Of a stretch of DNA of 64,000 nucleotides, positions 7,417-36,155 are shown one piece after another. A program made the position numbers and the translations under genes. Positions within the stretch are counted from its first letter, which is position 1. Each line of letters begins with the position of its first letter. Below the pieces are notes generated by a model. That model worked only from the letters and a program-made list of their open reading frames with translations, did no database searches and was not told the DNA's origin. Origin of the DNA: Armatimonadota bacterium (GTDB lineage Bacteria > Armatimonadota > Zipacnadia > UBA1398 > JAKPQA01); NCBI GenBank assembly GCA_029547025.1, contig JAKPQA010000144.1:62001-126000 (forward strand). The letters run 5' to 3'.

Positions 7417-7434
7417 GGAAGCAGGCCGGTCCTA

Positions 7435-8841: not shown

Positions 8842-8855
8842 ATCGCCCCGTCCGC

Positions 8856-17338: not shown

Positions 17339-18483
17339 GCTACCTGCACGTGGACGTGACGAGTGCGCAGAGTTCGCGCCGAACGGGCGCGCCGTGTGGT
17401 GACGTGGTCGTTCAGGGACGCACCGCAGGGTGGACGAGCTTGGTGTGTTGTGACGGCATTGGCCACGGGGTGAAGGCTCACGTGGCGGCAACCATGACCT
17501 CGGCACGTTTGATGGAGATGCTGCGGGGCGGCATGTCGGTCCAGCGGGCTGTGTCGGCGGTGGTGAAGACCATGGGCGCGGCGCGCGGCACCCCCCTGCC
17601 GTGGGCGGCGTTCAGTGCCGCACAGATTGCCAGCTCAGGCCAGGCGACGGTGATCACCTACGAGATGCCGGCCCCTATCCTTGCAACTCGGCGCCATGCT
17701 TCGGCCCTGAGGCAGCGGGCCACCAGTGTGGGCACCGAGATCGTGAGCGAGGCACACTGCCATTTGGAGCCCGGTGAGGGCCTGTTGGTGGTCACGGATG
17801 GGATCACTCAGGCCGGGCTTGGCACATCCATGCCTGGCGGCTGGGGAATCGATGGTGCCGTGAGGTGCGTGAATGAGGCACTGGAACGAGGCCGGCCCCC
17901 CGTGGAGCTGCCGAAGCTCGTTCACCGGCGCGCGATGGCCTTGTGTGGGGAGCATGTGGGCGACGACGCGACGGCCGTATTGGCCTACTGCCGGCAGGGC
18001 CGCGTGGTCACCGTGCTGACGGGTCCCCCCTCGGATCGGGCCCGTGACAAGGAGCTGGTGCGCCGTTTCGTGCTCGAGGAGGGTGCAAAGGCCATCTGCG
18101 GTGCATCGACGGCTGAGATGGTGGCGCGCTTGCTCGGCGTCGAGGTCACCGTCGAGCAGCGCCCGGTCCCGTCGATGGTGCCCCCACGGTATGGGATTGA
18201 GGGGATCGACCTGGTCACCGAGGGCGCGGTGACGCTCAACCAGTTGTGCAATGTGCTGGACTCCGACGCCGATGAGCTGGATCCGGACACAGGCGTCACC
18301 GCGCTGCGCGCGCTCCTGGACGAGGCGGACCGGGTGAACTTCCTCGTGGGGTCAGCTCGGAATCCGGGGCACGCGCCCATGCGGTTCCGGCAGATGGGGA
18401 TGATGACGAGGGGGAGGATCATTCCTCGGATCGCTCAGAAGCTCGAGGAACAGGGCAAGCTGGTGGTGATCGAGCACTGGTGA
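17335..18483 (+). CDS. SpoIIE-family protein serine phosphatase
   Basis: PP2C-like phosphatase of the SpoIIE/RsbU type, the usual output of partner-switching systems. Residues ~1-210 show CCDGIGHGVKAHVAATMTS (metal-binding Asp), LLVVTDGITQAGLG and GDDATAVLAY. The C-terminal ~160 residues (VTVLTGPPSDRARDKELV onward) form a second conserved region known from phosphatases in clostridial hydrogenase operons; its function is unknown. There is no PAS or receiver domain in the protein, so input probably comes from the translationally coupled H-cluster/PAS protein. Candidate partners are the two HATPase proteins and the DRTGG proteins downstream. Confidence 0.87.
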   Translation: MSYLHVDVTSAQSSRRTGAPCGDVVVQGRTAGWTSLVCCDGIGHGVKAHVAATMTSARLMEMLRGGMSVQRAVSAVVKTMGAARGTPLPWAAFSAAQIASSGQATVITYEMPAPILATRRHASALRQRATSVGTEIVSEAHCHLEPGEGLLVVTDGITQAGLGTSMPGGWGIDGAVRCVNEALERGRPPVELPKLVHRRAMALCGEHVGDDATAVLAYCRQGRVVTVLTGPPSDRARDKELVRRFVLEEGAKAICGASTAEMVARLLGVEVTVEQRPVPSMVPPRYGIEGIDLVTEGAVTLNQLCNVLDSDADELDPDTGVTALRALLDEADRVNFLVGSARNPGHAPMRFRQMGMMTRGRIIPRIAQKLEEQGKLVVIEHW

Positions 18484-20905: not shown

Positions 20906-21271
20906 GTGACTCTGGCGAGGGCCATCGAGATCGTCAAAGCCGACACGATTGTCGCGCCGCCGAACGGACAGGTGGAGCTGAGTGGATGCTTCGCGGCCGA
21001 CCTGATGAGCGACGTACTCGCCTTCGCTCGGTCCGGAGCTCTCCTGATCACCGGCCTGACTTCCGACCAGACGGTGCGAACGGCGATGATCAAGCACCTT
21101 CCCGCGGTGCTCATCATCGAGGGCAAGGACGTGGGTGTGGAGATGGTCGAGGCTGCTCGCGAGCAGGAGATTGCCGTGTTCCGCACGCCGTTATCCAAGT
21201 TCGAGGCCTGCGGGTTGCTCATGCAGGCCGGGCTGCGAGCCGCCCGGCGTTCCGGGGCGTACCCGGCTTAA
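20906..21271 (+). CDS. DRTGG-domain protein 1
   Basis: 122-aa single-domain protein of the DRTGG type (VELSGCFAADLMSDVLAFARSGALLITGLTSDQTVRTA). DRTGG domains occur in phosphotransacetylases and CBS proteins; ligand unknown. In clostridial and Thermotoga hydrogenase operons such small proteins accompany SpoIIE phosphatases and HATPases. Possible substrates are Ser/Thr residues acting as phospho-switch sites (anti-anti-sigma-like role), which is inference. GTG start with GGAGG at 20891. Confidence 0.78.
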   Translation: MTLARAIEIVKADTIVAPPNGQVELSGCFAADLMSDVLAFARSGALLITGLTSDQTVRTAMIKHLPAVLIIEGKDVGVEMVEAAREQEIAVFRTPLSKFEACGLLMQAGLRAARRSGAYPA

Positions 21272-21290
21272 GGCAGAAAGTGGCGGAGCC

Positions 21291-21743
21291 GTGGACGAGA
21301 GATCCATCGGCCATTTCGAGTTCCCGATCCTGGGCCGGGCTTACTTCCTGGGGGGCCGGGCCTCGACATCGGTGAAGAAGGCATTGCGCGAGGCCGGCGT
21401 CGACGATGACACGGTCCAGCGTGTGGCCGTGGCCTGCTATGAGGCGGAGATGAACGTGGTGCTCCATGCACGGTCGGGCTACGTCTCGGTGGATGTCTAC
21501 CCCTCTCGCGTCGACGTGGCCATCTCAGACCGCGGGCCAGGGATCGCCGATGTGACGAAGGCCATGACGCCGGGGTGGTCCTCGGCCTCCGATGAAGCCC
21601 GCGCTCTCGGGTTCGGAGCGGGCATGGGACTACCGAACATCAAGCAGCAATCGGATCTGATGTCGCTGGAGAGCGAGCCAGGGCAAGGCGTCGTGCTCCG
21701 GCTGACCTTCTACCGAGGAGGCGGCAATGGCGCCGGATCGTGA
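21291..21743 (+). CDS. Anti-sigma-factor-type serine kinase (RsbW/SpoIIAB-like HATPase)
   Basis: 150-aa GHKL ATPase with the N-box YEAEMNVVLHA, the G1 box ISDRGPGIAD and the G2 box GFGAGMGLPNIKQQSD. This small HATPase_c form is typical of serine kinases of partner-switching systems, not of histidine kinases: there is no dimerisation/His domain. It lies between two DRTGG genes and overlaps the second by 17 bp, so the three products probably act together. No sigma factor gene is in the window. Confidence 0.85.
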   Translation: MDERSIGHFEFPILGRAYFLGGRASTSVKKALREAGVDDDTVQRVAVACYEAEMNVVLHARSGYVSVDVYPSRVDVAISDRGPGIADVTKAMTPGWSSASDEARALGFGAGMGLPNIKQQSDLMSLESEPGQGVVLRLTFYRGGGNGAGS

Positions 21744-22083
21744 CGAGACAACGGTGCGCCACATGGCCGAGGCACTGGGGCTAACGGTGCTCGCCGGCTC
21801 TGCCTGCCTGGACCGCCCGATTCACGGGGCTCTGGTGAGCGATCTGCTCAGCTACGTCATGGCCAGTGGCCGGGCAGGTGATGTATGGATCACGATCCAG
21901 ACCCATGCGAACACGGTGGCCGTCGCGGCGCTTGCCAGTCTGGCGGCCATTGTGGTGGCTGCGGGTTTCGAACCGGGTGACGACACGCTGTCTCGAGCCG
22001 AGGAGGAAGAGATCCCTCTCCTGATGTCGAGCCAACCCGCGTACGTCCTGGCGGGACGGCTCTTTGAGTTGGGTGTGCGGTGA
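21727..22083 (+). CDS. DRTGG-domain protein 2
   Basis: 118-aa relative of the DRTGG protein at 20906 (LAGSACLDRPIHGALVSDLL, VWITIQTHANTVAVAALA, then PLLMSSQPAYVLAGRL). The start overlaps the HATPase gene by 17 bp and the stop is 4 bp from the PHP gene. The duplication around a serine-kinase-like gene suggests two alternative partners for one kinase. Ligand and phosphorylation site unknown. Confidence 0.72.
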   Translation: MAPDRDETTVRHMAEALGLTVLAGSACLDRPIHGALVSDLLSYVMASGRAGDVWITIQTHANTVAVAALASLAAIVVAAGFEPGDDTLSRAEEEEIPLLMSSQPAYVLAGRLFELGVR

Positions 22084-22087
22084 GCGC

Positions 22088-22855
22088 ATGGGCGCCGATA
22101 CCCTCGTCGCCATCGACTTGCACGTGCACAGCGCGCTGTCGCCATGTGGGGCCGACGAGATGCGCCCGCCAGCCGTGCTGCTGACGGCGGAGCAACGGGG
22201 GATCCGAGTGCTGGGAGTCGTGGACCACAGTACGGCCGGCAATGCCCGGGCCTTCATCGAGGCGGCCCCCGCCTTTGATGTTCGCGTCTTGGTCGGGCTC
22301 GAGGTTGAGAGCGCCGAGGGGGTCCACACGCTGGCGCTGTTCGATGACTGGCCGCCGGCCATGGAGATGGACCGGGATGTGGCCGAACGCTTGCCCGCGC
22401 TGAGGAACCGGCCGGGCCTGCTCGGATCGCAGCACTACGTCGACGCACTGGGCGACACTTTGGGAGAGGAGCCCCGTCTGCTGATCGCGGCCACGGACCT
22501 GACGATCGAGGAGTTGGCCGATATGGCTCACGAACGCGGAGGGCTGAGCATTCCAGCACATGTGGAGCGCCAAGCCAACGGACTCCTGCCCACGCTCGGC
22601 TTCGTGCCGCAGGGCCTCAGCGTCGATGCGTTCGAGCTGTCGCGGCATACGGGGCGCTCGGATGCCCTGCGGCGATGGCCCGACCTGAGTGGCCGGCCGG
22701 TGCTGTGGTCATCGGACGCGCACTGCCTCGACGACATCGGGGCGGGCGCGAGTTGGGTGCCACGCGGTGTGGCCGAGGCGTCGGGCCCGTTGCGCGATTG
22801 GGGCCCCGACCTGGTGCGGTCAGTCGTGCGAGGGCCGGCGGGCACGGATGCGTGA
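22088..22855 (+). CDS. PHP-domain metal-dependent phosphoesterase
   Basis: 255-aa protein with the PHP signature DLHVHSALSPCG near the N-terminus, GVVDHSTAGN, LVGLEVES and, near the end, WSSDAHCLDDIG, the His/Asp metal ligands of this superfamily. PHP proteins hydrolyse phosphoesters or nucleotides; the substrate here is unknown. Its place in a phospho-signalling block suggests a role on a nucleotide or phosphoprotein signal. The frame opens at 22064, but the ATG at 22088 fits the domain edge. It overlaps the next HATPase gene by 8 bp. Confidence 0.83.
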   Translation: MGADTLVAIDLHVHSALSPCGADEMRPPAVLLTAEQRGIRVLGVVDHSTAGNARAFIEAAPAFDVRVLVGLEVESAEGVHTLALFDDWPPAMEMDRDVAERLPALRNRPGLLGSQHYVDALGDTLGEEPRLLIAATDLTIEELADMAHERGGLSIPAHVERQANGLLPTLGFVPQGLSVDAFELSRHTGRSDALRRWPDLSGRPVLWSSDAHCLDDIGAGASWVPRGVAEASGPLRDWGPDLVRSVVRGPAGTDA

Positions 22856-23396
22856 GGTCTCACTGCACGTTCTGGATCTTGCGAGAAACTCCATCGAGGC
22901 GGGCGCTTCGAACGTGCGCGTGACCGTCGAGGAGTCGGGACCGGAGGACCGCCTCATGGTGCGGGTCGAGGACGATGGCCGGGGAATGGACGCAGGCACG
23001 CTGGAGCGGGCCAGCGACCCGTTCTTCACCACGCGAACGACTCGGCGCCAGGGCATGGGGTTGTCGCTGTTCCGATCGGTCTGCGAACGCTGCGAAGGGG
23101 GTATGACGCTGACTTCGGAGCCAGGTGGGGGGACCAGTGTGTCGGGCTGGATGCGCCTGTCACACCTCGACCGCCCGCCTCTAGGCGATGTGGGAGCGGT
23201 GGTGCAGGCCCTGGCCTGCGAGTGGCCGATGGTGCGGGCGCGCTACGAGCACCGCGTGGACGACCGCCGCTTCGTTCTCGACCTGGGGGAGCTGCAGGCC
23301 GAGTTGGGCGATGTGCCCGTCAGCTCGCCTGTGGTGCTGTCTTGGATCGCGGAACACGTCCGCGAGCAGGTTGCGTGTCTGGGCAGCACGGCCTGA
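22848..23396 (+). CDS. HATPase_c ATP-binding protein 2
   Basis: 182-aa GHKL ATPase: N-box HVLDLARNSIEAGA, G1 VEDDGRGMDA, F-box DPFFTTRTTRRQGMGLSLF, which also carries the G2 glycines. The last ~70 residues are a small extra domain. It is closer to histidine-kinase catalytic domains than the RsbW-like protein at 21291, yet it has no phospho-acceptor domain. An unusual free-standing catalytic domain that may phosphorylate one of the operon's small proteins. Confidence 0.82.
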   Translation: MREVSLHVLDLARNSIEAGASNVRVTVEESGPEDRLMVRVEDDGRGMDAGTLERASDPFFTTRTTRRQGMGLSLFRSVCERCEGGMTLTSEPGGGTSVSGWMRLSHLDRPPLGDVGAVVQALACEWPMVRARYEHRVDDRRFVLDLGELQAELGDVPVSSPVVLSWIAEHVREQVACLGSTA

Positions 23397-23441: not shown

Positions 23442-23816
23442 GTGAAGAGCCGAGAGGAGCTACGGGCCATCCGTGAGCGCGCCAAAGCAACGCTGGCCGT
23501 GCGCGACAACCAGGGCGGTCCCCGCGTCGTGATCGCCATGGGAACCTGCGGCATCGCCGCCGGCGCGCGGGACGTGATGAGCGCCCTGCTCGAGGAGATG
23601 GCCCAACGCGGCATCAGCGACGTAACCGTATCGCAGACCGGCTGCAAGGGCTTGTGTGACCGCGAGCCGGTCGTCGAAGTGATCACACCTGGTGCGCCGT
23701 CCGTCACCTATGGGCGTGTGACGCCGGCTGTCATGCGCCGCATCGTGGCCGAGCAGCTCGTCAACGGCCAGATCGTCTCAGAGTATGTCATCGCCACCGG
23801 ATCGGAGATGCGCTGA
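23442..23816 (+). CDS. Thioredoxin-like [2Fe-2S] ferredoxin
   Basis: 124-aa protein with VIAMGTCGIAAGARDV and TGCKGLCDREP, as in (2Fe-2S) ferredoxins encoded next to NuoE/NuoF/HydA sets in clostridia and Thermotoga. Only three Cys are obvious (Cys in GTCG, then GCKGLC), so the fourth ligand is unclear. A helical N-terminus precedes the fold. GTG start after GCAGGAGAG. It probably shuttles electrons to, or senses the redox state of, hydrogenase 2. Confidence 0.82.
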   Translation: MKSREELRAIRERAKATLAVRDNQGGPRVVIAMGTCGIAAGARDVMSALLEEMAQRGISDVTVSQTGCKGLCDREPVVEVITPGAPSVTYGRVTPAVMRRIVAEQLVNGQIVSEYVIATGSEMR

Positions 23817-23819
23817 AGC

Positions 23820-24296
23820 ATGGCTGTACAGACCTTGTGCTGTGAGACGTCGAACCAGATTGACGCCATCATTGAGCGACGCGGGGCCGACCCCGACTCG
23901 CTGATCGAGATCCTGCACGCCGTGCAAGAGGAGATCGGTTACCTGCCCTGCGAGGTGCAGGAGTACGTGGCAGACCGACTGGGGATTGCGCCGGGTGCGG
24001 TCGAGGGCGTCGTCAGCTTCTATAGCTTCTTCACCACAGTCCCTCGTGGTCGGCATACGGTGAAAGTGTGCCAGGGAACCGCGTGCTACGTCCGAGGAGG
24101 CAAGCGCCTGCTCGAGGCCGTCTCCAAACACTGCGGCTGCGGAGTCGGCGAGACCAGTGCGGACATGCGCTTCAGCCTCGACGTCGTCCGCTGCGTGGGC
24201 GCCTGTGGCCTTTCCCCCGTAATGACCGTGGGCGATGACGTGTACGAGCGCGTGAAGCCCACGCGAGTCGCCGAGATCTTGGCCAAGTACGAGTAG
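23820..24296 (+). CDS. NuoE-like [2Fe-2S] subunit of hydrogenase 2
   Basis: 158 aa, second NuoE-type subunit of the operon. LIEILHAVQEEIGYLPCEVQ at the N-terminus, cluster ligands in CQGTACYVRGG and VGACGLSPVMTVG. It starts 3 bp after the ferredoxin gene and 33 bp before the NuoF-GltD fusion. By position it pairs with the fusion and HydA2 rather than with HydB1/HydA1. Confidence 0.92.
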   Translation: MAVQTLCCETSNQIDAIIERRGADPDSLIEILHAVQEEIGYLPCEVQEYVADRLGIAPGAVEGVVSFYSFFTTVPRGRHTVKVCQGTACYVRGGKRLLEAVSKHCGCGVGETSADMRFSLDVVRCVGACGLSPVMTVGDDVYERVKPTRVAEILAKYE

Positions 24297-24329
24297 CTGA
24301 CAGCCATCTAGGAAGGTAGAGAGGGTCTG

Positions 24330-27300
24330 ATGCGCACTTATCGTTCGCACGTATTGGTCTGCGCCGGCGCCAGCTGCATCTCCTCGGGCTCCCAGTCGGT
24401 GGCGGACCGGATGGAACAGACCATCACCGAATGCGGCCTGGCGGACGAAGTCAGGGTGATCCGAACGGGCTGCATGGGCTCCTGTGACCTGGGTCCGGTG
24501 GCTGTGGTGTACCCCGAAGGCGTCTTCTACATGAAACTGACGCCCGACGACGCCGCACTGGTCGTCCAGGAACACTTGCTCAAGGGGCGTCCCGTGGAAC
24601 GGCTCATGTACCACCCCGATGAGGGCGAGGCGCCCATCCTCACCATGGAACAGATCCCCTTCTTCGCCCTGCAGCGGAAGACCGTGCTCCGCAACTGCGG
24701 CGAGATCGACCCGGGGAGCATCGACGAGTACATCGCGCGCGACGGGTATGAGGCGCTGGCCGTGGCCGTCACCGAGAAGACGCCCGAACAGGTGATCCAG
24801 ATCGTCAAGGACTCGGGGCTGAGGGGCCGGGGCGGCGGCGGCTTCCCCACGGGCCTGAAGTGGGAGCTCACAGCCAAAGCGACCGACTCACCCAAGTACG
24901 TCGTCTGCAACGCCGACGAAGGGGATCCGGGTGCTTTCATGGACCGGAGCGTCCTGGAGGGCGATCCCCACAGCGTCATCGAAGCCATGGCCATCGCCGG
25001 CTACGCCATCGGGGCCCAGAAGGGCTACATCTACGTGCGCGCCGAGTACCCACTGGCCATCGAGCGGCTCAACGTCGCGCTGGCCCAAGCGCGACACTAC
25101 GGGTTGCTGGGTGACAGCATCTTCGGATCGTCCCACTGCTTCGATATCGAGCTCCGCATGGGTGCGGGAGCCTTCGTGTGCGGTGAAGAGACCGCACTCA
25201 TGGCCTCCATCGAGGGGAAGCGTGGCGAACCCCGTCCGCGCCCGCCCTTCCCCGCCCAGCAGGGCTTGTGGAACAAGCCCACACTCCTGAACAACGTCGA
25301 GACCTACGCCAACATCCCGCAGATCATCCTCAGGGGGCCCGAGTGGTTCGCCGCCATGGGCACACCGACCAGCAAGGGCACCAAGGTCTTCGCTCTGGCC
25401 GGCCATGTGAACAACACGGGCTTGGTGGAGGTGCCCATGGGGACGCCGCTGGGCACCATCATCTACGAGATCGGCGGGGGCGTTCGGAATGGCCGCAAGT
25501 TCAAGGCCGCGCAGTCCGGCGGCCCATCGGGCGGGTGCATCCCCAAGGAGTTCCTGAACACGCCCGTGGACTACGAGAGCCTCAAGGAGCTCGGCTCCAT
25601 CATGGGGTCCGGCGGCCTGATCGTCATGGACGACACGACCTGCATGGTCGACCTGGCCCGGTTCTTCCTGGAATTCGTTCAGGACGAGTCCTGTGGAAAG
25701 TGCCCACCTTGCCGGATCGGCACGAAGCGCATGCTTGAGATCCTCGAACGCATCTGCGCGGGCGAGGGCCGCGAGGGTGACATCGAGCTTCTCGAGGACC
25801 TGGGCCAGCAGATCAAAGAGACAGCGCTCTGCGGCCTGGGGCAGACCGCGCCGAACCCGGTGCTCAGCACGATCCGGTACTTCCGTGAGGAGTACGAGGA
25901 GCACATCCGCGACAAACACTGCCGGGCAGGAACGTGCGCCGATATCATGAAAGCGCCCTGCGAGCACGCGTGTCCCGCTGGGGTTGATGTGCCCGCCTAC
26001 GTGACCGCCATCGCCGAGGGACGGATGGATGACGCCTATGCCATCATCCGCGACGCCAATCCATTCCCCTCGGTCTGCGGACGGGTCTGCACCGCCTACT
26101 GTGAGGCCCACTGCCGGCGGGGTCAGCTCGATTCACCACTGGCCATCCGCCTGCTCAAACGTGCGGCGTCCGATCACCGGACTCGGCCATGGCAGCCGGC
26201 GCTGGAACCGCGGCGCCCACACAAGGTGGCCGTCATTGGCGCTGGACCCGCCGGGCTGACCGCGGCGTACGACCTCGTGCGCAAGGGCTACGGCGTGACC
26301 GTGTTTGAGAGGCAACCCATCGCCGGTGGGATGATGGCCCTGGGCATCCCGGACTACCGCTTGCCCAAGGACGTGCTTCAGCAGGAGATCCAGGACATCC
26401 TGGACTTGGGCGTCGAGCTCAGGACCGGCGTGGCGTTCGGCAAGGATGTTACCCTCGATGAGTTGGGCCGGCAGGGCTACGATGCCGTGTTCATCAGCGT
26501 CGGTTGCCACACCGGCATGCCTCTGGACTGCCCGGGCTCCGGTGCCAACGGAGTCCTCGATGCCGTGCAGTTCCTCCGCGACTTGGCACTCAACCGCAAC
26601 CCCCATGTGGGCAAGAGGGTCGCCGTGGTCGGCGGCGGCGACACCGCCATCGACTCGGCGCGCTCGGCACTGCGCCTCGGAGCCGATGAGGTGCACATCG
26701 TGTACCGGCGCACAGTCGAGGAGATGCCCGCGCATCCGGCCGAGATCGAAGAGGCCATAGCCGAGGGTGTCAAGATCCACGTGCTCGTGGCGCCCAAGGA
26801 GGTCATCGTGCGCGACGGCAAGGTGGCCGGGCTCGTGTGCCAACAGATGCGCCTGGGCGAGTTCGATAAGGGCGGCCGGCGCCGGCCGGTTCCCGTCGAA
26901 GGCGCCGAGACAACCTTCGAGGTCGATACGGTGATCGCCGCCATCGGCCAGAAGATCGACGAGATGGACCTGGGCGTGCCCGTGTCTCGCGGCAAGATCC
27001 AGGTCGATCCCGCGACGCTGTCTGCCGGGACAGGACTGGTGTTCGCCGGAGGGGACGCCACCGAGGGGCCAATGACCGTGGTGGACGCCATTGCCGACGG
27101 GCACCGCGCGGCACTGGCCATCCATAGCCGGCTGTCGGGCGAGCCCATGCCGCGCGCCAGGAAACGCCCGAAGACGCGGGTGGACGCCGCAGTCATGGCC
27201 CAGTTCGAGGCGGCCGCAGAGGAAGAGATCGCCGCGGCCCAAGCTCCGAAGATCCCGGATTCATACCGGCGAAGCGGCTTCGCGGAAGTGGAGCAGGGGC

Positions 27301-27371
27301 TGTCGCTCCCCGTGGCCTGCCGCGAGGCGACCCGATGCCTGCATTGCGACTGCGTGCTGATCGAGTCCTAG
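24330..27371 (+). CDS. NuoF-GltD fusion flavoprotein subunit of hydrogenase 2
   Basis: 1013-aa chimera. Residues ~1-120 form a thioredoxin-like [2Fe-2S] domain (CAGASCISSGS, CMGSCDLGP). Residues ~130-540 are NuoF/HydB-like with GRGGGGFPTGLKWE, CNADEGDPGAFMDRS and ESCGKCPPCRIGT. In place of the usual C-terminal two-[4Fe-4S] domain, the chain continues into a GltD/NfnB-like module: ACPAGVDVPAYV, CGRVCTAYCEAHCRRG, FAD-binding GAGPAGLTAAYDLVRKGYG, NADPH-type GGGDTAIDSARSALRLGA and VFAGGDATEG. It ends EATRCLHCDC. One chain could therefore touch NAD(H) and a second pyridine nucleotide. HydA2 follows after 36 bp. Confidence 0.93.
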   Translation: MRTYRSHVLVCAGASCISSGSQSVADRMEQTITECGLADEVRVIRTGCMGSCDLGPVAVVYPEGVFYMKLTPDDAALVVQEHLLKGRPVERLMYHPDEGEAPILTMEQIPFFALQRKTVLRNCGEIDPGSIDEYIARDGYEALAVAVTEKTPEQVIQIVKDSGLRGRGGGGFPTGLKWELTAKATDSPKYVVCNADEGDPGAFMDRSVLEGDPHSVIEAMAIAGYAIGAQKGYIYVRAEYPLAIERLNVALAQARHYGLLGDSIFGSSHCFDIELRMGAGAFVCGEETALMASIEGKRGEPRPRPPFPAQQGLWNKPTLLNNVETYANIPQIILRGPEWFAAMGTPTSKGTKVFALAGHVNNTGLVEVPMGTPLGTIIYEIGGGVRNGRKFKAAQSGGPSGGCIPKEFLNTPVDYESLKELGSIMGSGGLIVMDDTTCMVDLARFFLEFVQDESCGKCPPCRIGTKRMLEILERICAGEGREGDIELLEDLGQQIKETALCGLGQTAPNPVLSTIRYFREEYEEHIRDKHCRAGTCADIMKAPCEHACPAGVDVPAYVTAIAEGRMDDAYAIIRDANPFPSVCGRVCTAYCEAHCRRGQLDSPLAIRLLKRAASDHRTRPWQPALEPRRPHKVAVIGAGPAGLTAAYDLVRKGYGVTVFERQPIAGGMMALGIPDYRLPKDVLQQEIQDILDLGVELRTGVAFGKDVTLDELGRQGYDAVFISVGCHTGMPLDCPGSGANGVLDAVQFLRDLALNRNPHVGKRVAVVGGGDTAIDSARSALRLGADEVHIVYRRTVEEMPAHPAEIEEAIAEGVKIHVLVAPKEVIVRDGKVAGLVCQQMRLGEFDKGGRRRPVPVEGAETTFEVDTVIAAIGQKIDEMDLGVPVSRGKIQVDPATLSAGTGLVFAGGDATEGPMTVVDAIADGHRAALAIHSRLSGEPMPRARKRPKTRVDAAVMAQFEAAAEEEIAAAQAPKIPDSYRRSGFAEVEQGLSLPVACREATRCLHCDCVLIES

Positions 27372-27407
27372 GCCCGCCCAGCGGCCTCTCTCAGGAGGAA
27401 GAGCTTG

Positions 27408-29156
27408 ATGTCTCAGGTCAACATCACCATCAACGGTCAGACCGTTGCCGCCGAGGCCGGGATGACCGTGCTGCAGGCGGCCCAGGCGGCGGGTATCCGC
27501 ATCCCGACCCTGTGCTATCACCCGGATCTGCCCGCACAGGGCGCGTGCCGCGTGTGCTTGGTCGAGATCGAAGGCGAACGCGTGCTCCAGCCATCCTGTA
27601 CCTTCAAGGTCCGCGAGGGAATGTGCGTCCACACTCGGTCGCCCCGGGTGCGCAAGGCGCGCCGTACAGTGGTCGAATTGCTGCTCTCCGACCACCCATC
27701 GGACTGCACCGCCTGCGCCCGGAATGGCACTTGCGAGCTGCAGAGCTTGGCCGAGGAACTCGGCATACGCGAGGTGCGTGTCAAGGCCGAACCGCCCGGC
27801 CACGAGGTGGACGACTCGAGCTTCTCGGTCATTCGCGACCCCGACAAGTGCGTGCTCTGCCGCCGATGCATCGAGACATGCACGGTGATTCAGTCCGTCT
27901 CCGGCCTCCGTATCAAGGGCCGAGGGTACGACAGCGTCGTCGGAGCTGCCTTCGACTTGCCGCTTGGTAGCGCCCTCTGCGTCAACTGCGGTCAATGCAT
28001 CAACCGGTGTCCTACCGGTGCGCTGACCGAGAAGAGCCACATCGGCGCCGTCTGGGCCGCCCTGGAGGACCCGGACACCTTCACCGTCGTCCAAACCGCA
28101 CCGGCCGTGCGCGTGGCACTCGGCGAGGCGCTTGGGATGGATCCCGGGAAGATCGTCACAGGCAAGATGGTCGCGGCCCTGCGCGCGCTGGGTTTCGACC
28201 GGGTGTTCGACACGGACTTCACGGCCGACCTGACGATCATGGAAGAGGGCTACGAGCTCATCCATCGGGTCACGACCGGCGGGGTGCTCCCTCAGCTCAC
28301 GTCGTGCAGTCCGGGATGGATCAAGTTCATCGAGCACTTCTACCCGGACCTGCTGCCCAATGTGTCGTCATGCAAATCTCCTCAGCAGATGTTCGGGGCC
28401 TTGGCCAAGACGTACTTCGCCCAGGAAGCTGGTGTGGATCCGGCCAAGATGCGCGTGGTGTCCATCATGCCGTGCACGGCGAAGAAGTTTGAGGCGGCGC
28501 GGCCCGAGATGAACGACTCGGGCTATCAAGACGTGGACTACGTCCTGACGACCCGTGAGCTGGCGCAGATGATCCGAGAGATCGGGATCGACTTCGAAAC
28601 CCTTGAGGAGAGCGGCTTCGACGACCCTCTCGGCCAGTCCACGGGCGCCGCCGTCATCTTCGGTGCTACCGGTGGGGTAATGGAAGCGGCCTTGCGTACA
28701 GCCTATGAGGTCATCACCAACGAGAAGCTTGAGGACATCGATATCCACGCCGTCCGTGGTATGCAGGGCGTCAAGGAGGCCACCGTCCAGGTGGGCAACC
28801 TTGAGCTGAAGGCCGCGGTGGCGCACGGACTGGCCAATGCCAGACAGCTCCTGGACCGGGTGGCCCGGGGCGAGGGAGGCTACCATTTCATCGAGATCAT
28901 GGCCTGTCCGGGCGGGTGTCTCGGTGGCGGCGGGCAGCCCATACCGACATCGATGGAGATCCGCAAGTCCCGGGCGGCGGCCATTTACCAGGCCGATCGC
29001 GATCTACCCATCCGGCGGTCGCATGAGAACCCATCGATCCAGGCGATTTACGAGAAGTTCCTGGGTAAGCCTCTAAGCGAGAAGTCGCACCACCTGTTGC
29101 ACACCAAGTACACACCGCGAACGCGGCGTGCAAACCAGGTGGCGACCCGCGAGTGA
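27408..29156 (+). CDS. [FeFe]-hydrogenase 2 catalytic subunit HydA2
   Basis: 582-aa H2-forming/oxidising subunit. Same N-terminal Fe-S chain as HydA1: [2Fe-2S] (FCYH-type; here LCYHPDLPAQGACRVC), His-ligated [4Fe-4S] (DHPSDCTACARNGTC) and two [4Fe-4S] (CVLCRRCIETC, CVNCGQCINRC). H-cluster motifs TSCSPGW, MPCTAKKFE and MACPGGCLGGGGQP. It lacks the C-terminal [2Fe-2S] domain of HydA1. The first motif has Ser where HydA1 has the second Cys. The ATG at 27408 after AGGAGG is chosen over a TTG one codon earlier. Last gene of the rex operon. Confidence 0.94.
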   Translation: MSQVNITINGQTVAAEAGMTVLQAAQAAGIRIPTLCYHPDLPAQGACRVCLVEIEGERVLQPSCTFKVREGMCVHTRSPRVRKARRTVVELLLSDHPSDCTACARNGTCELQSLAEELGIREVRVKAEPPGHEVDDSSFSVIRDPDKCVLCRRCIETCTVIQSVSGLRIKGRGYDSVVGAAFDLPLGSALCVNCGQCINRCPTGALTEKSHIGAVWAALEDPDTFTVVQTAPAVRVALGEALGMDPGKIVTGKMVAALRALGFDRVFDTDFTADLTIMEEGYELIHRVTTGGVLPQLTSCSPGWIKFIEHFYPDLLPNVSSCKSPQQMFGALAKTYFAQEAGVDPAKMRVVSIMPCTAKKFEAARPEMNDSGYQDVDYVLTTRELAQMIREIGIDFETLEESGFDDPLGQSTGAAVIFGATGGVMEAALRTAYEVITNEKLEDIDIHAVRGMQGVKEATVQVGNLELKAAVAHGLANARQLLDRVARGEGGYHFIEIMACPGGCLGGGGQPIPTSMEIRKSRAAAIYQADRDLPIRRSHENPSIQAIYEKFLGKPLSEKSHHLLHTKYTPRTRRANQVATRE

Positions 29157-29573: not shown

Positions 29574-31001
29574 ATGGTTCGCCCCGGTGGCCCGGCGAGC
29601 GAGTGGTCGCGGGAGCGAGTGGACCAGGTTGCCCGGTCGATCCATGATCCGGCCCGCGTAACTGCGGCATTGGCCGAGGCCCGAGAGCCCTCGGTTGAGC
29701 GGGTGCGCGAGCTCGTGGGGCGCGCACGGCAGGGCGAGGGCCTCTGTCCCGAAGAGGTCGCGGCGCTGCTGCATGTGGAGGATCCCACGTGGCGCAACCA
29801 GGTCCTGGCGGCGGCCCGGGAGATCCGCGAGCGCTACTACGCGCGCCGGATCAGCGTCTCCGCCCCCGTGTGCCCCACAAACCGCTGCGTGAACGAGTGT
29901 CTGTACTGCCCAATGCGTCGCTCCAACTCGCGACTCCGACGTCGCGCCGCGACGACCGGCGACCTGCAGAGGGAGATCGTGGCGCTTCTGGATGAGGGCT
30001 ACCGCAGCTTCACGCTGGTGTTCGGCGACGATCGCAGCGGCACGGCCTACGTGCGTGACGCGGTCTGGGCCACCTTCGGCACCACCTCGGGGCTCCGGCA
30101 GGCGCAACGGGTGGATCTGGACATCAACCCCATGCGTCCCGACCAACAGGCGGCCCTCGGCGAGGCCGGGCGGCTGGGCACCAACCATGTGGTCCAGGAG
30201 ACCTACGACCCCGAGGCCTACGGCCGCCTGCACCCGGAGGGACCGAAGTCCGACTACGCCTGGCGGCTCACGTGCCACGATCGGGCACTCGAGTCCGGCT
30301 GGGAACAGGTGGGACTTGGCATCCTGCTTGGGCTTCACGACCACCGCTACGACGTCGTGGCGCTGGTGGCCCATGCACAGTATCTCGAGAAGCAGTACTC
30401 GATGGAACCTGCAGTGGTATCGCTGCCGCGTCTGGTTCACTCGACGGGGGCACCGGCATCGCTCTCGACCGAGTTTGAGGTCGACGACGAGCGCTTCTGC
30501 TATGTGGTGGCGGTGCTGAGATTGGCACTGCCGTTCTATAGTATTCAGCTCAGCACCCCGGTGCAGGGCCCCGTGCGGCGAGAGCTGTACAGTCTCGGCG
30601 TCACGCAGTGTAGTGTCGGCTCGCTAAGCTATCCGGGTGCCTACAGTGGAGACGGAGAACCCGAGACGAACTCCACACTGCGGATCGGTAGCCCGCGAGC
30701 CCTTGAGCAGCTCGTGTACCGGATGGCCGAGTTTGGGTTCGTCCCGAACCTGTGCGCCAACTGTGCGGTGGCGGGGCGCCGACCGGCCGGGGCGCGGAGC
30801 CGGTGTGTGAATGAACGCTGCGGGCCCAATTCGCTGGCTGCACTCAAGGAATACCTGCTTGACCATGCCTCGCCCGAAACCCAGGTCCTGGGCGACCGCC
30901 TGATCCAGCGGGAGCTTTCCCGCCTCCCCGAGCGTCTACGTTCCGATACACTGGACCTGCTGCAGGAGGTCGAAGCAGGGCTCCGGAGACAGGTGTTGTA
31001 G
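29574..31001 (+). CDS. HydG-like radical SAM protein (divergent paralogue)
   Basis: 475-aa relative of HydG. The radical SAM motif is C-x3-C-x2-C in NRCVNECLYCPMRRSN near residue 100, followed by the HydG-like VVQETYDPEAYGRLHPEGPKSDY and GLGILLGLHDHRYD stretches. The auxiliary-cluster region is changed: C-x2-C (LCANCAVAGRR) is followed by Cys at +14 and +19, so the spacing is C-x2-C-x18-C with an extra Cys, against C-x2-C-x22-C in the true HydG at 8856. The ATG at 29574 follows AGGAGG by 8 nt. It is first in the sensory locus, so it may modify the cofactor of the adjacent sensor. It could also be an unrelated member of the HydG/ThiH group. Confidence 0.85.
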   Translation: MVRPGGPASEWSRERVDQVARSIHDPARVTAALAEAREPSVERVRELVGRARQGEGLCPEEVAALLHVEDPTWRNQVLAAAREIRERYYARRISVSAPVCPTNRCVNECLYCPMRRSNSRLRRRAATTGDLQREIVALLDEGYRSFTLVFGDDRSGTAYVRDAVWATFGTTSGLRQAQRVDLDINPMRPDQQAALGEAGRLGTNHVVQETYDPEAYGRLHPEGPKSDYAWRLTCHDRALESGWEQVGLGILLGLHDHRYDVVALVAHAQYLEKQYSMEPAVVSLPRLVHSTGAPASLSTEFEVDDERFCYVVAVLRLALPFYSIQLSTPVQGPVRRELYSLGVTQCSVGSLSYPGAYSGDGEPETNSTLRIGSPRALEQLVYRMAEFGFVPNLCANCAVAGRRPAGARSRCVNERCGPNSLAALKEYLLDHASPETQVLGDRLIQRELSRLPERLRSDTLDLLQEVEAGLRRQVL

Positions 31002-31008
31002 CGACGCT

Positions 31009-31026
31009 GGGCCGCGGGCGCGGCCC
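31009..31026 (+). other. Intercistronic hairpin
   Basis: GGGCCGC-GGGC-GCGGCCC fills most of the 45-bp gap between the HydG-like gene and the H-cluster kinase. It may set relative expression of the two; no T tract. Confidence 0.5.
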
Positions 31027-31046
31027 GAGTCAGCAGGTGAAGACGC

Positions 31047-33512
31047 GTGAACCGCGAGGTCCCACCCAGCACGGGCGTCGTGACGACCATCCTCGATCGG
31101 TGCCGCCGATGCTACAGCTGTGTCCGTGGCTGCCCCGCCAAGGCCATCCGCGTCCAGGGCGGCCAGGCCCACGTCATCGAGGAGCGCTGCATCGGCTGTG
31201 GCACATGCGTCAGGGTCTGCCGGCAGAAGGCCAAGCAGGTGCTCTCCGCTCTGCCTGCGGCACGCCAACTGCTCTCAGGCACGGAGCCGATCGTGGCCAT
31301 TGTCGCTCCCTCATACCCCGCCGCGTTCGAGGGCGTCTCGGCTGGCCAGGTCGTGGCGGGACTGCGCCAACTCGGTTTCGCCAGGGTCTACGAAGTCGGG
31401 TTTGGCGCGGACATGGTGGCCCGCGAATACGCGCACCTCGTCAAGCGGCGCCCGGCGGCGGCCCTGATCAGCACTCCGTGTCCGGCACTGGTCGCCTATG
31501 TCTGCAAGTACGCGCCGAGCCTCGTACCCTTTCTCGCGCCGGTCGTGTCGCCGATGGCAGCCATGGCTCGGGCAGTGAGACGGTCGCTGATGCCGGGAGC
31601 ACCGGTGGTCTTCGTGGGGCCCTGCATCGCCAAGAAGGCGGAACTGCGGAACGCCGGCGACGCGTCCAGCGCGGATCTGGCCATGACGTTCACCGAGCTC
31701 GACGAGCTTCTGCGGGAGCGGGACGTGGACGTGAACCGCCTGGCGCCATCGGTCGCCGACGAACCCCTGCCCGGCCTGGGGGCCCTGTTCCCCATCACCG
31801 GTGGGCTACTCAAGGCGGCGATGGTGCGTGCTGACCTGACGGATGACGGCGTGATCGCTGTCGACGGGCCCAGGCGCTGCATCGAAACTCTGCGCGCCAT
31901 GGAACAGGGAGCGCTCGGGCCATGTTTGGTCGATGCGCTGTGGTGCGAGGGATGTGTCGCGGGGCCCGGCTATCCCCATGAGATGAGCGTTCTCAGCCGC
32001 CGGCGCCGCGTCACCGAGCACGTGCGCACTCTGGCGGCACACGCGCGGGCTGCCCAGCGGAGCCTGCGCCGCCTCGGGCGTACCAACCTCGCCCGCGAGT
32101 TCCACGCCGAACCGCTCGTGGCCCCGGTGCCCACAGAGAAGGAGATCCGGGACATCCTGGCCCGTACCGGCAAGCTCTCCGCCGACCAGGAGCTGGATTG
32201 CGGGGCCTGTGGGTACGCCACCTGCCGCGAGAAAGCCATCGCCGTCTACCAGGGCTTGGCCGAGAATGAGATGTGCCTCCCCTACCTGATCGAGCAACTC
32301 GAAGTGAACGTCGAGAAGCTCAGCCGCAGTCGCGACGAGATCGGCAAGGCGCGCGAAGCAGCGGTCCGGGCACAACGGCTGGCGTCGATGGGCGACCTGG
32401 CGGCCGATGTGGCCCAGGAGATCAGCGAGCCCCTGGGTCGGCTGCTGGTGTTCGCCCAGGTCTTCTGGGACAGCTTGGGTGAGAACGATCCGCGCCGACC
32501 CGACCTGGCGGACATCATTGTCGAGGCCGCCCGATGCCGGGACGTGCTGGCCGCCCTCGAGCAGTTCGCGCGTCAGAAGAGGCCCGAGTGGGAAGAGGTC
32601 AACCTCTCCGAGCTTCTGGACCGTTCGCTGATCGAGATACGCCCCCATCTGACCGGTACGCGGATCGACCTCGCCTGTTACGTCGAACCGGGCTTGCCCA
32701 CGGTGCTCGCCGACGCTGGCCAACTCAGGCAGGTGCTCTCGAATCTGCTCTCCAACAGCGTCGAGGCCATCGGGCAGGCGGGCCGCATCTGGGTGCAAGT
32801 GCGCGGCGTAGACGACGGTCAGTCGGTCGAGATCTCCGTTCGCGACACCGGTCGCGGAATCCCGCCCGAGGTCCTGCCCCGCATCTTCCAGCCCTTCGTG
32901 ACCACCAAGCCACGGGCCCGCGGCTCGGGGCTCGGCCTGGCCGTGGCCCACGGAATCGTGCAGAGCCACGATGGAGAGATCACCGTCGACAGCCGGATGG
33001 GCGGCGGTACCGAGGTGAAGGTTCGCCTGCCGATCTCGCACTCGCGGCCCGCCCGGAGTGACGCCCTCAAAGTGCTCGTGGTCGACGACGACGCGGATTT
33101 CCTCGAACAGCACCGCCTGACGCTGGCCGACGCCGGCTTCGAGGTGGTCACGGCCGAGCGAAGCGACGAGGCGCTGGACGTGGCCAACCGGGAGATCCCC
33201 GATGCATTTGTCCTCGACCTCATCATGGAACGGACCGACTCGGGCGCGCGACTCGCCCGAGCGCTGCGGCGCGACCCCCGGTTCCGCGATGCCCCCATCG
33301 TCATCCTCACATCGGTCGTGCACGATGTGGGCTTCGAGTTTCACCGCAATCCCGGCGAAGTGCTGGCCTGGATGAAGGCCGATGCATGGTTCGACAAGCC
33401 CGTCCCGGTCCAGACACTGGTCAGCACCATTCGCCGAATCCATGCCGAGCGTCTGGCCGCGCGCGAGCCGCGAGTCGCCGAGAACGCTGAGCAGGTGGCG
33501 GCCCATGACTGA
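31047..33512 (+). CDS. H-cluster sensor fused to a histidine-kinase module and a receiver
   Basis: 821-aa soluble hybrid. Two ferredoxin [4Fe-4S] motifs (CRRCYSCVRGCP, CIGCGTCVRVC); H-cluster-like domain with TPCPAL, GPCIAKKAE and WCEGCVAGPG; Fe-S domain DCGACGYATCREKA; kinase module near residues 440-660; receiver near 675-800 with VVDDDADF, Asp724 and the Lys in WFDKPV. In the kinase H-box the usual His is Gln457 (DVAQEISEPL), while N, G1 (VRDTGRGIPPE), F and G2 (GSGLGLAV) boxes are intact. It may thus bind ATP but not autophosphorylate normally. The third H-cluster motif has C-x2-C, not C-x3-C. Overlaps the next gene by 8 bp. Confidence 0.9.
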   Translation: MNREVPPSTGVVTTILDRCRRCYSCVRGCPAKAIRVQGGQAHVIEERCIGCGTCVRVCRQKAKQVLSALPAARQLLSGTEPIVAIVAPSYPAAFEGVSAGQVVAGLRQLGFARVYEVGFGADMVAREYAHLVKRRPAAALISTPCPALVAYVCKYAPSLVPFLAPVVSPMAAMARAVRRSLMPGAPVVFVGPCIAKKAELRNAGDASSADLAMTFTELDELLRERDVDVNRLAPSVADEPLPGLGALFPITGGLLKAAMVRADLTDDGVIAVDGPRRCIETLRAMEQGALGPCLVDALWCEGCVAGPGYPHEMSVLSRRRRVTEHVRTLAAHARAAQRSLRRLGRTNLAREFHAEPLVAPVPTEKEIRDILARTGKLSADQELDCGACGYATCREKAIAVYQGLAENEMCLPYLIEQLEVNVEKLSRSRDEIGKAREAAVRAQRLASMGDLAADVAQEISEPLGRLLVFAQVFWDSLGENDPRRPDLADIIVEAARCRDVLAALEQFARQKRPEWEEVNLSELLDRSLIEIRPHLTGTRIDLACYVEPGLPTVLADAGQLRQVLSNLLSNSVEAIGQAGRIWVQVRGVDDGQSVEISVRDTGRGIPPEVLPRIFQPFVTTKPRARGSGLGLAVAHGIVQSHDGEITVDSRMGGGTEVKVRLPISHSRPARSDALKVLVVDDDADFLEQHRLTLADAGFEVVTAERSDEALDVANREIPDAFVLDLIMERTDSGARLARALRRDPRFRDAPIVILTSVVHDVGFEFHRNPGEVLAWMKADAWFDKPVPVQTLVSTIRRIHAERLAAREPRVAENAEQVAAHD

Positions 33513-34986
33513 TCTCCCGCGGCTCGAAGGTTCCGTGCTGATCGCCGACGATGAAGAGGCGATCTGCCGCGGCATCAAGCGCGTCCTGACCAGCCGCGGG
33601 GCCGAGGTCGATATGGCCCACTCGGGCGCCGATGCGCTGAAGCGGCTGACCTCCACCGCGTTCGACGTGGCCCTGGTCGACCTGGTGATGCCCAGCTTCG
33701 GCGGGTTCGAGCTCCTCGAGCGGATCGAGCAGGCTGAGCTCAAAGTCGTCGCCATCGTCATCACCGCACATGCCAGCATCGACACGGCCGTCGAGGCCAT
33801 ACGCAAGGGCGCCTTCGACTACCTCCCCAAACCCTTCGCTCCGGAGGACTTGGTCCTGAGAGTCCACCGTGCGCTGGCCTGGCGTCACTTGCGCAGAGAG
33901 GCGGAGACGCGGCTACTGGAGCTCAACTCCGACAAGACCCAGCTCCGAACCATTCTCAACAGCCTGGCCGATGGCGTCATCGTGGTGAACGTGGACGGCC
34001 GCGTCGTGCTGACGAATCCCGCTGTCCGCGCGGCCCTCGGGCTGGGGCCGAGCCCGCACGACCCACAGCCCCTGGAGTCCGTGGTCGCCGATCCCGCGTT
34101 GGCAGAACTGATCCGCCGGGCGCCCGAAGTAGGGCCGGGCGGGCGCGCAAGCCTCAGTACCCATGTCGAGGTGGGCCAGCACGTCTACATGGCGCGGGTC
34201 GTGCCCATCGAGGACTCCCGCAAAGCCTACCTCGGGAGTGCCACGGTGCTCCGCGACGTCACTGAGCTGATGAGCCTCGAACGGGCCAAGTCGCGGTTCA
34301 TGTCGATGGTCGCTCACGAGCTCAAGTCGCCCCTGGCCGCGGTACAAGGTTACCTGAACGTCGTTCTGGGCGAGGCGCCGCCGGACGACGGCAGGCGCGA
34401 AGAGGTCCTCACGCGCTGCCGCGAGCGAGTGGAGGGCATGGCCGAACTGGTGCGCGACCTTCTGGAGCTCTCGCGTTCGGAAGCTCCTGCGGTGCGCCGG
34501 ACCGAGGAACTCGCTGTGGCCGACATCGTGACGCAGGCCACCAACGTGAGCCACGATTTGGCCGAACGACACGAGGTCTCCCTCGAAGTCCAGGTGGCGC
34601 CCGATTGCCCCCCACTCCATGCCGACCGCGCCGAAGTCGTGCGCATCCTTACCAATCTGGTGAGTAACGCGATCAAGTACAATCGCCCGGGTGGCCGGGT
34701 CAGCATTCGGGCCGTGCCCGACAGCCAGGGATGCCGCCTCGATGTCGAAGACGACGGTCTCGGAATCCCCGAGGACGCTCTGCCGCGCCTGGGTGAGGAG
34801 TTCTTCCGTGTGAACACCGACGACCGCCGGGGTATTGTCGGCACGGGCCTGGGGCTGGCATTGGTCCGGCGGGCCGTGGCGGCCAACCATGGCCGACTTG
34901 CCATCCGGTCGGTGCTCGGCCAGGGCTCGGTGTTCTCCGTCTGGCTGCCGTCAGTCCCCGGAGTCAACGGCGGGCCAGGATCGTGA
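33505..34986 (+). CDS. Receiver-PAS-histidine kinase
   Basis: 493-aa soluble protein. Residues 1-120 are a receiver domain (LIADDEEAI, acceptor Asp in VALVDLVMPSFGG, Lys in YLPKPFAPED); residues ~140-260 a PAS domain (ILNSLADGVIVVNVDGRVVLTNPA); then a kinase core with a normal H-box SMVAHELKSPLAAVQG, N-box ILTNLVSNAIKYNRPGG, VEDDGLGIPED and GTGLGLALVRR. No DNA-binding domain. It overlaps the H-cluster kinase by 8 bp and has the phospho-acceptor His that the upstream protein lacks, so the two could form one relay. The frame opens at 33382, but the ATG at 33505 starts the receiver. Confidence 0.92.
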   Translation: MTDLPRLEGSVLIADDEEAICRGIKRVLTSRGAEVDMAHSGADALKRLTSTAFDVALVDLVMPSFGGFELLERIEQAELKVVAIVITAHASIDTAVEAIRKGAFDYLPKPFAPEDLVLRVHRALAWRHLRREAETRLLELNSDKTQLRTILNSLADGVIVVNVDGRVVLTNPAVRAALGLGPSPHDPQPLESVVADPALAELIRRAPEVGPGGRASLSTHVEVGQHVYMARVVPIEDSRKAYLGSATVLRDVTELMSLERAKSRFMSMVAHELKSPLAAVQGYLNVVLGEAPPDDGRREEVLTRCRERVEGMAELVRDLLELSRSEAPAVRRTEELAVADIVTQATNVSHDLAERHEVSLEVQVAPDCPPLHADRAEVVRILTNLVSNAIKYNRPGGRVSIRAVPDSQGCRLDVEDDGLGIPEDALPRLGEEFFRVNTDDRRGIVGTGLGLALVRRAVAANHGRLAIRSVLGQGSVFSVWLPSVPGVNGGPGS

Positions 34987-36155
34987 GCCACGTCAGCCTC
35001 TCCGTCTGCTCTACCTATGAAGCGAACCGCGTCCGAGATGCCGTGGGCGAGTGCCTTGGGTGCCTGCCAGCCGCCCGGACGCTGCTGCGGCCAGGGGCCC
35101 GCGTCATTGTCAAGCCCAACCTTATCAACGCGCGTCCGCCCGATACGGCCATCTGCACTCACCCCGCCGTCGTTCGGGCCGTGGCCGAATGGGCATGCGC
35201 CGCCGGGTGCCAGGTGACCATCGCCGACGAGCCCGGGTACGCGCTGCTCGCCCGAGCCGAGCCTCTGTTCGCCCGGGCCGGCATCAGTCAGGCGTGTGAG
35301 GATCTGCCGGTCCGCTATGAGCTGCTCCGGATGGGGGGCTACGTGGTGGCCTCCGTGCCGAACCCGCTCCGGCTGGCTGAGGTGCGCGTCTCCGCCGCGC
35401 TGCGCGACGCCGATGTAGTGATCAATCTCCCCAAGTGCAAGACCCACGGCCAGACACTCCTTACGGGAGCAATCAAGAATCTGTTCGGTGGAGTGGCACC
35501 CCGGGAGCGCATCCAGATCCACGGCCTCGGCGGATTCGAGGGCCTCAGCGAAGCCATCGTCGACGCCTTCGCGTGCCAGAGGCCGCAGCTGACCGTGATG
35601 GATGCCATCGTGGCGATGGAAGGGAACGGCCCCACGCGTGGGAGGCCCCGCCCGCTCGGGCTGGTGGCAGCGTCCGGCGACGCCGTTGCCCTCGACGCGG
35701 TCATGGAGCACCTCGCCGGTTTCGAGCCCGGGGAAGTCCGAGTGACGGCCGCCGCAGGCCGCCAGGGCCTGGGTGAATGCAACCTCACTCGCGTCCAGGT
35801 TGATGGATACGACATCCGGCGCGCGCACGTGCCCTTGGAACGGCCGCCGGGCCTGATCCGGCATGGTATGCCGCGTTGGGTAGGGCGAGTCGTGTCGCGG
35901 CACCTCTGGGTCCGGCCCGCCTTTGATGCCGCGCGTTGCGTTGGGTGCGGCGCCTGCGCCGCCATCTGCCCGGGCGGCGCCATCGATATGAACGGCACGG
36001 CCCGGGTCAACTACGATCGCTGCATCGAGTGCTTCTGCTGCCAGGAGGTCTGCCCGGCCGACGCCATCGACTCGCGCGAGAGCCTACTGGCACGCGTGGT
36101 GGTCGGTAGCAGCCGGCGTGTGACGGGGCGAGGATCGGCAGACCCGAGGCGCTAG
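34983..36155 (+). CDS. DUF362 protein with C-terminal 2x[4Fe-4S] ferredoxin domain
   Basis: 390-aa protein. The N-terminal ~300 residues are DUF362 (VIVKPNLINARPP, INLPKCKTHGQTLLTGAIKNLFGGV, then AMEGNGPTRGRPRPLGLVAA). The C-terminal ~70 residues hold two [4Fe-4S] motifs (CVGCGACAAICPGGAI, CIECFCCQEVCPADAI). DUF362 proteins are widespread in anaerobes, without a settled function. The GTGA overlap with the kinase gene ties it to the sensory operon; it may donate electrons to the sensor's Fe-S chain (inference). Confidence 0.88.
   Translation: MSHVSLSVCSTYEANRVRDAVGECLGCLPAARTLLRPGARVIVKPNLINARPPDTAICTHPAVVRAVAEWACAAGCQVTIADEPGYALLARAEPLFARAGISQACEDLPVRYELLRMGGYVVASVPNPLRLAEVRVSAALRDADVVINLPKCKTHGQTLLTGAIKNLFGGVAPRERIQIHGLGGFEGLSEAIVDAFACQRPQLTVMDAIVAMEGNGPTRGRPRPLGLVAASGDAVALDAVMEHLAGFEPGEVRVTAAAGRQGLGECNLTRVQVDGYDIRRAHVPLERPPGLIRHGMPRWVGRVVSRHLWVRPAFDAARCVGCGACAAICPGGAIDMNGTARVNYDRCIECFCCQEVCPADAIDSRESLLARVVVGSSRRVTGRGSADPRR

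Follow-up and report, generated by a model that had tools for sequence, protein, structure and literature searches.

In a 64,000-nucleotide stretch of an Armatimonadota genome (contig JAKPQA010000144.1, positions 62,001 to 126,000; hereafter, the window), a second HydG-like gene is encoded between a bifurcating [FeFe] hydrogenase and a kinase-fused [FeFe] sensor. We interpret its product, HydG2, as a duplicate of HydG that was converted into a different radical SAM enzyme and now serves the circuit for H2 sensing associated with the hydrogenase, a reading to which we assign a probability of roughly 0.55.

The genomic segment concerned (29574-36155) had been described in the initial annotation as four adjacent genes with two overlaps, and this description is borne out by the DNA. 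All four genes are real and lie on the + strand in the order described: HydG2 (a HydG-derived radical SAM protein of 475 aa with TIGR03955 and ThiH matches; 29574..31001), SHK (a group-C-like [FeFe] sensor extended by a histidine kinase and a receiver in the same protein; 31047..33512), a relay kinase with a receiver-PAS-HisKA-HATPase architecture (33505..34986), and a DUF362 protein with two 4Fe-4S motifs (34983..36155). The best start of the relay kinase gene, at 33505, precedes the end of the SHK stop codon at 33512, and the relay kinase and DUF362 genes overlap in a GTGA at 34983. Across a 417-bp gap upstream of HydG2 is the gene for HydA6 (27405..29156, + strand), the catalytic subunit of an NADH-dependent group A6 [FeFe] hydrogenase, preceded on the same strand by the rest of the hydrogenase operon (23442..27371), which encodes a 2Fe-2S protein (23442-23816), HydC (23820-24296), and HydB (24330-27371), and by a conserved set of genes for HATPase, PHP-domain, and HATPase proteins (21135..23396, + strand). 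This is an ordinary HydABC operon of the bifurcating type, comparable to those of A. woodii and T. kivui (PDB codes 7q4v and 8a6t) and unusual only in the HydG2 and SHK genes downstream. The L1 motif of HydA6, TSCSPGW, has a Ser in place of the C300 ligand; as a candidate feature linked to HydG2 it was rejected, being present in 14 of 15 orthologs, with or without HydG2. The same motif is found in A. woodii HydA1 (7q4v), and the loci concerned are the window (27405-29156), L033-L040, L081, and L118-L122.

The window further encodes every protein of the canonical maturation set (HydE, HydF, AspA, and HydG1; 5103..10262, - strand), of which HydG1 (8856-10262, - strand) has a complete auxiliary cluster motif and both the His and the Arg discussed below. 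AspA encoded next to hyd genes supplies the bridgehead nitrogen (PMC11736057). Away from the hyd cluster, a second HydE-like gene with 52% identity to the window HydE was observed at L113:1407-2465 (genome G000, contig C47), and such genes are also present in G250, G256, and G258. A second, ordinary group C sensor (SensB; 15587-17338, + strand), with a PAS domain and a CX3C spacing in L3, offers an internal comparison; it forms a unit (15587..18483) with a SpoIIE-type phosphatase (17335-18483, + strand) and, unlike SHK, has no HydG copy beside it.

HydG2 matches the HydG model TIGR03955 at 289.0 bits (E = 5e-86), under the equivalog cutoff of 312.15, and the ThiH family at 194 bits; the HydG1 protein of the window is full-scoring against TIGR03955 (553.6 bits). 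The HydG2 copies are 50 to 57% identical to that of the window, and the identity of HydG2 to canonical HydG copies is 33 to 40%; the second HydG with which HydG2 coexists in these genomes was recovered at about 32 to 38%. A phylogeny of the HydG copies, as suggested in the initial annotation, recovered HydG2 as a separate, single clade with 100/100 support inside HydG and not with ThiH; its stem (1.31) is the longest branch of the tree, and its exact attachment point is weakly supported. A literature search for a HydG paralog yielded nothing relevant. The long stem and the loss of several catalytic residues (see below) are what a decaying, functionless duplicate might display, but all nine reading frames are full-length and stop-free, the radical SAM motif is invariant, and the operon position is repeated. 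Moreover, dN/dS between the HydG2 genes of L038 and L040, both of which are without any auxiliary Cys, is 0.09, and thus even the members devoid of the cluster ligands are under selection. HydG2 is hence a HydG-descended protein under purifying selection, and decay is scarcely credible as an explanation.

To delineate the distribution of HydG2 and its neighbors, we used a set of 291 genomes of Armatimonadota. HydG2 was found in nine of these, all of one class and many of them fragmented metagenome-assembled genomes, and all nine also encode SHK, so that the pairing of a HydG relative with an H-cluster sensor kinase noted in the initial annotation is real and repeated, and the co-occurrence that it proposed to examine holds within the phylum. 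The two genes are adjacent in seven of the nine genomes; in the remaining two (G257 and G258) they lie apart, and both are retained. SHK orthologs, 58 to 61% identical across the sensor part, occur in 11 genomes, namely, the nine with HydG2 together with G274 and G290. HydA6 orthologs occur in 15, i.e., the eleven SHK genomes and four (G252, G275, G288, and G289) in which neither SHK nor HydG2 was found, the contigs of G252 and G288 stopping just past and near HydA6, respectively. Fisher tests of the association between HydG2 and SHK gave p values of 1.5e-15 (all 291 genomes), 5e-9 (the 58 with any HydG-type match), and 0.011 (the 15 with HydA6), which serve as guides rather than proofs because the genomes are related, independent pairs are too few, and the G252 contig ends where it does. 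The grouping of HydG2 with SHK exceeds chance, and a link of HydG2 to the sensor is thereby supported.

The same data bear on the possibility that HydG2 is a partner of HydABC that modifies or protects HydA6, with the sensor linked merely through a shared operon. HydA6 lies directly upstream of HydG2 in eight of the nine genomes, including G257, where the sensor is elsewhere, and the partner could for this reason be the hydrogenase instead of the sensor. Nevertheless, G258 has kept both HydG2 and SHK apart from HydA6, and the four HydA6 genomes that lack SHK also lack HydG2, a weak argument given the contig ends in G252 and G288. We regard this alternative as quite improbable.

The remaining two genes of the segment do not belong to the core. 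The relay kinase is an optional partner, present downstream of SHK in four (the window, L034, L035, and L037) of the six loci with sufficient flanking sequence, and DUF362 adjoins the pair in only one of the nine loci, that of the window, its grouping with them not exceeding chance. The four-gene system put forward earlier therefore reduces to a pair; DUF362 is probably not a core component, and its proposed role as a ferredoxin feeding electrons to the sensor was discarded on the same count. A contig scan with window-specific peptides recovered canonical HydGs and a single HydG2, in a JAKORR record that corresponds to the G251 locus; no HydG2 was found in viral contigs, and among the plasmid matches listed there were only canonical HydG and ThiH.

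SHK combines two N-terminal [4Fe-4S] motifs, an Fe_hyd_lg_C domain (E = 1e-41), PF04060, a weak HisKA match, HATPase_c, and a receiver. It is group-C-like in its motif layout, judged by the published definition (PMC8163306; see also PMC10055695): the two N-terminal [4Fe-4S] motifs are followed by the H-domain and a Cx2Cx4Cx16C domain, there is no equivalent of C299, and Gly occupies the M353 position. In these features, and in its location beside a bifurcating-type hydrogenase, it resembles group C (M2f) sensors such as TmHydS and the bfuT type reported from Hydrogenedentota, in which a group C protein encoded next to a bifurcating hydrogenase is likewise fused to a kinase (PMC11406978). It differs from them in having its own receiver, in being paired with HydG2, in the absence of a detectable PAS domain (SensB of the window has one), and in the L3 loop. 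The four H-cluster Cys are all present (one in L1, one in L2, and two in L3), but the two in L3 are spaced CX2C, one residue shorter than CX3C. This spacing characterizes a whole clade of kinase-fused sensors (window 31047-33512; L034-L040 and L079-L087). It was entertained as a reason for the presence of HydG2 and rejected: since related sensors in genomes without HydG2 (G192, G209, G274, G275, and G290) have CX2C too, HydG2 does not explain the spacing.

Two further observations concern sensors of this kind. Downstream of HydA6 in G275 and G289 is a stand-alone receiver protein (L120:1657-2118, - strand, and L122:6654-7115, + strand) that is 68% identical to the C-terminal receiver of SHK, as though the sensor-kinase part were missing. 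Elsewhere, an H-cluster sensor kinase and a relay kinase are found in a [NiFe] hydrogenase-like operon (L039:124-8560 and L085:7608-17580), which suggests that an [FeFe]-type sensor has been placed with a [NiFe] enzyme.

We then examined which parts of the HydG catalytic apparatus are preserved in HydG2. The three Cys of the radical SAM motif CX3CX2C are present in every copy (Cys 105/109/112 in the window). In TcThiH with L-tyrosine, R300 binds the amine and carboxylate of the substrate, and T299, S318, S321, and R306, pocket residues that are conserved in HydG, bind the phenolate (PMC9046217). The phenolate part is largely kept, with the equivalents of T299, R306, and S321 (T328, R335, and S350) in all nine HydG2 proteins and that of S318 (S347) in eight. 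The R300 equivalent is Arg in 26 of 26 canonical HydG proteins and Pro in 9 of 9 HydG2 proteins (Pro329 in the window). Four changes are fixed in all nine, Y100C, Q205H, R329P, and F369L, the first of which introduces an extra, invariant Cys; N181 is consistently replaced by D or E; and the channel-gate Phe (F81 in T. italicus HydG, where the channel carries dehydroglycine to the second site) is gone throughout. The fixed new residues are predicted, from strand parity, to face inward.

From tyrosine, HydG generates p-cresol along with CO, CN, and the Fe synthon. An auxiliary cluster is where this Fe-CO-CN synthon is put together (PMC6212873 and PMC11736057). The three Cys at this site (CX2CX22C) are present in 26/26 canonical HydG proteins; among the nine HydG2 proteins, only those of the window, L034, and L037 have all three, and the window copy (Cys394/397/416) has them in a loop that is 4 residues shorter. 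The other six have lost at least one, in each case including the third, which on the tree was lost at least two times (in L035 and in the clade of L033, L039, L036, L038, and L040); L038 and L040 retain none of the three. A putative dangler-iron His ligand, which we take to be His265 of T. italicus HydG (role reported by Dinis 2015), is present in all 26 canonical proteins and lost in seven of the nine HydG2 proteins, including that of the window (Ala280). The corresponding alignment column was placed via the E133 numbering in PMC9046217, and its residue count ruled out a loss in all HydG2 members, the His being kept in L035 and L037. With three Cys and the His in L037 and three Cys at altered spacing in the window, a second-cluster site might persist in some members. 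AlphaFold models of HydG2 adopt the HydG fold (TM scores of 0.87 to 0.92 to PDB code 4wcx), with an auxiliary loop that is modeled as unstructured (pLDDT of 47) and devoid of the two short helices seen in the same loop of the HydG1 control from the same sequence set (pLDDT of 74 to 93). A separate departure at this site was noticed in the HydG1 proteins of L091, L092, and L093 (G253, G254, and G256) and of L100, in which CTAGYRC replaces CTACYR, such that the second auxiliary Cys is Gly and a Cys occurs three residues on; this pattern may reflect a different ligation of the auxiliary cluster in proteins that otherwise resemble HydG.

Thus, HydG2 shares with HydG (TIGR03955; PDB codes 4wcx and 4rtb) its fold (TM scores of 0.79 to 0.92), the C-terminal domain, the radical SAM motif, and the greater part of the phenolate pocket and differs from it in scoring below the family cutoff, in the Arg-to-Pro change and missing gate Phe, in the extra Cys100, and in an auxiliary motif that is incomplete in 6 of 9 members. 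With ThiH (2-iminoacetate synthase; TIGR02351; PDB code 7pd1) it has in common the radical SAM tyrosine-lyase fold, the lack of a working auxiliary cluster, and the phenolate residues listed above; however, ThiH keeps R300, where HydG2 has Pro, and HydG2, which clusters with HydG on the tree, carries the C-terminal domain typical of HydG.

These residue patterns weigh on two further explanations. The initial annotation saw in HydG2 a private maturase for a sensor cofactor that differs from the catalytic H-cluster; on this view, a modified Fe-CO/CN precursor supplied by HydG2 would give SHK a variant H-cluster. The adjacency to and constant co-occurrence with the sensor are in keeping with this proposal, as are the full set of auxiliary ligands in L037, the three Cys of the window copy, the odd L3 spacing of SHK, and a second HydE in four of the nine HydG2 genomes, which adjoins HydG2 only in G258. 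Yet the substrate Arg and the gate Phe are lost in 9/9, the His in 7/9, and auxiliary Cys in 6/9 members, losses that make such a maturase unlikely for most of them, and L038 and L040 are under purifying selection with no auxiliary Cys at all. Furthermore, CX2C sensors, including the SHK orthologs of G274 and G290, exist without HydG2; HydF has no duplicate (a split pair of matches in G258 represents one gene); and TmHydS, a characterized group C sensor, accepts the ordinary synthetic [2Fe] cofactor (PMC10055695). Overall, we consider the proposal improbable. Alternatively, HydG2 could be a noncatalytic regulator or scaffold, a binding partner of HydE, HydF, HydG1, or the apo-sensor that controls the delivery of the cofactor or monitors SAM or redox state. 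Such a role would suit the retained fold, the C-terminal domain and tail, which are well conserved despite the loss of the auxiliary cluster, and the placement of HydG2 among maturation-dependent proteins, but a pure scaffold needs neither an invariant CX3CX2C motif nor the part of the phenol pocket that is kept, nor would it readily account for fixed new residues that appear to face inward; we view it as unlikely.

The recruitment of a duplicated HydG as a new radical SAM enzyme accommodates these observations as follows. Maturation of the hydrogenase as well as of the sensor would fall to the canonical HydE, HydF, and HydG1. Having preserved its [4Fe-4S] site for SAM cleavage and the larger part of the phenol(ate) pocket, HydG2 probably generates the 5'-deoxyadenosyl radical and directs it at a substrate that is phenolic. 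This is probably not free L-tyrosine, since all nine members have Pro in place of the Arg that holds the amine and carboxylate of tyrosine, although another residue could replace it; derivatives of tyrosine or tyrosyl side chains would fit. With the amino-acid clamp lost in all and parts of the synthon site lost in most, HydG2 is probably a new enzyme and not a second cofactor factory. The rebuilding of the radical site, common to all members, would have come first, and the CO/CN route and Fe-synthon assembly site would have decayed afterward in several lineages. The product or modification made by HydG2 may act on SHK, or SHK may govern it, and the histidine kinase and receiver of SHK would relay the H2 or redox state. 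More tentatively, and with a lower probability, HydG2 might catalyze an undescribed radical SAM reaction on a phenolic substrate or tyrosyl side chain, the product or modification serving the kinase-fused [FeFe] sensor as a signal or switch when H2 is sensed; the maturase would then have been recruited to signaling.

A conserved radical SAM partner derived from a cofactor maturase provides a concrete new gene for the H2 signal relay of group C sensors. In HydG2, evolution has separated the two activities of HydG: the radical site was rebuilt, and the synthon site proved dispensable and was lost at least two times, so that its members constitute natural material on which parts of HydG serve which function. 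Calling every HydG-like gene a maturase would, accordingly, over-count H-cluster maturation systems.
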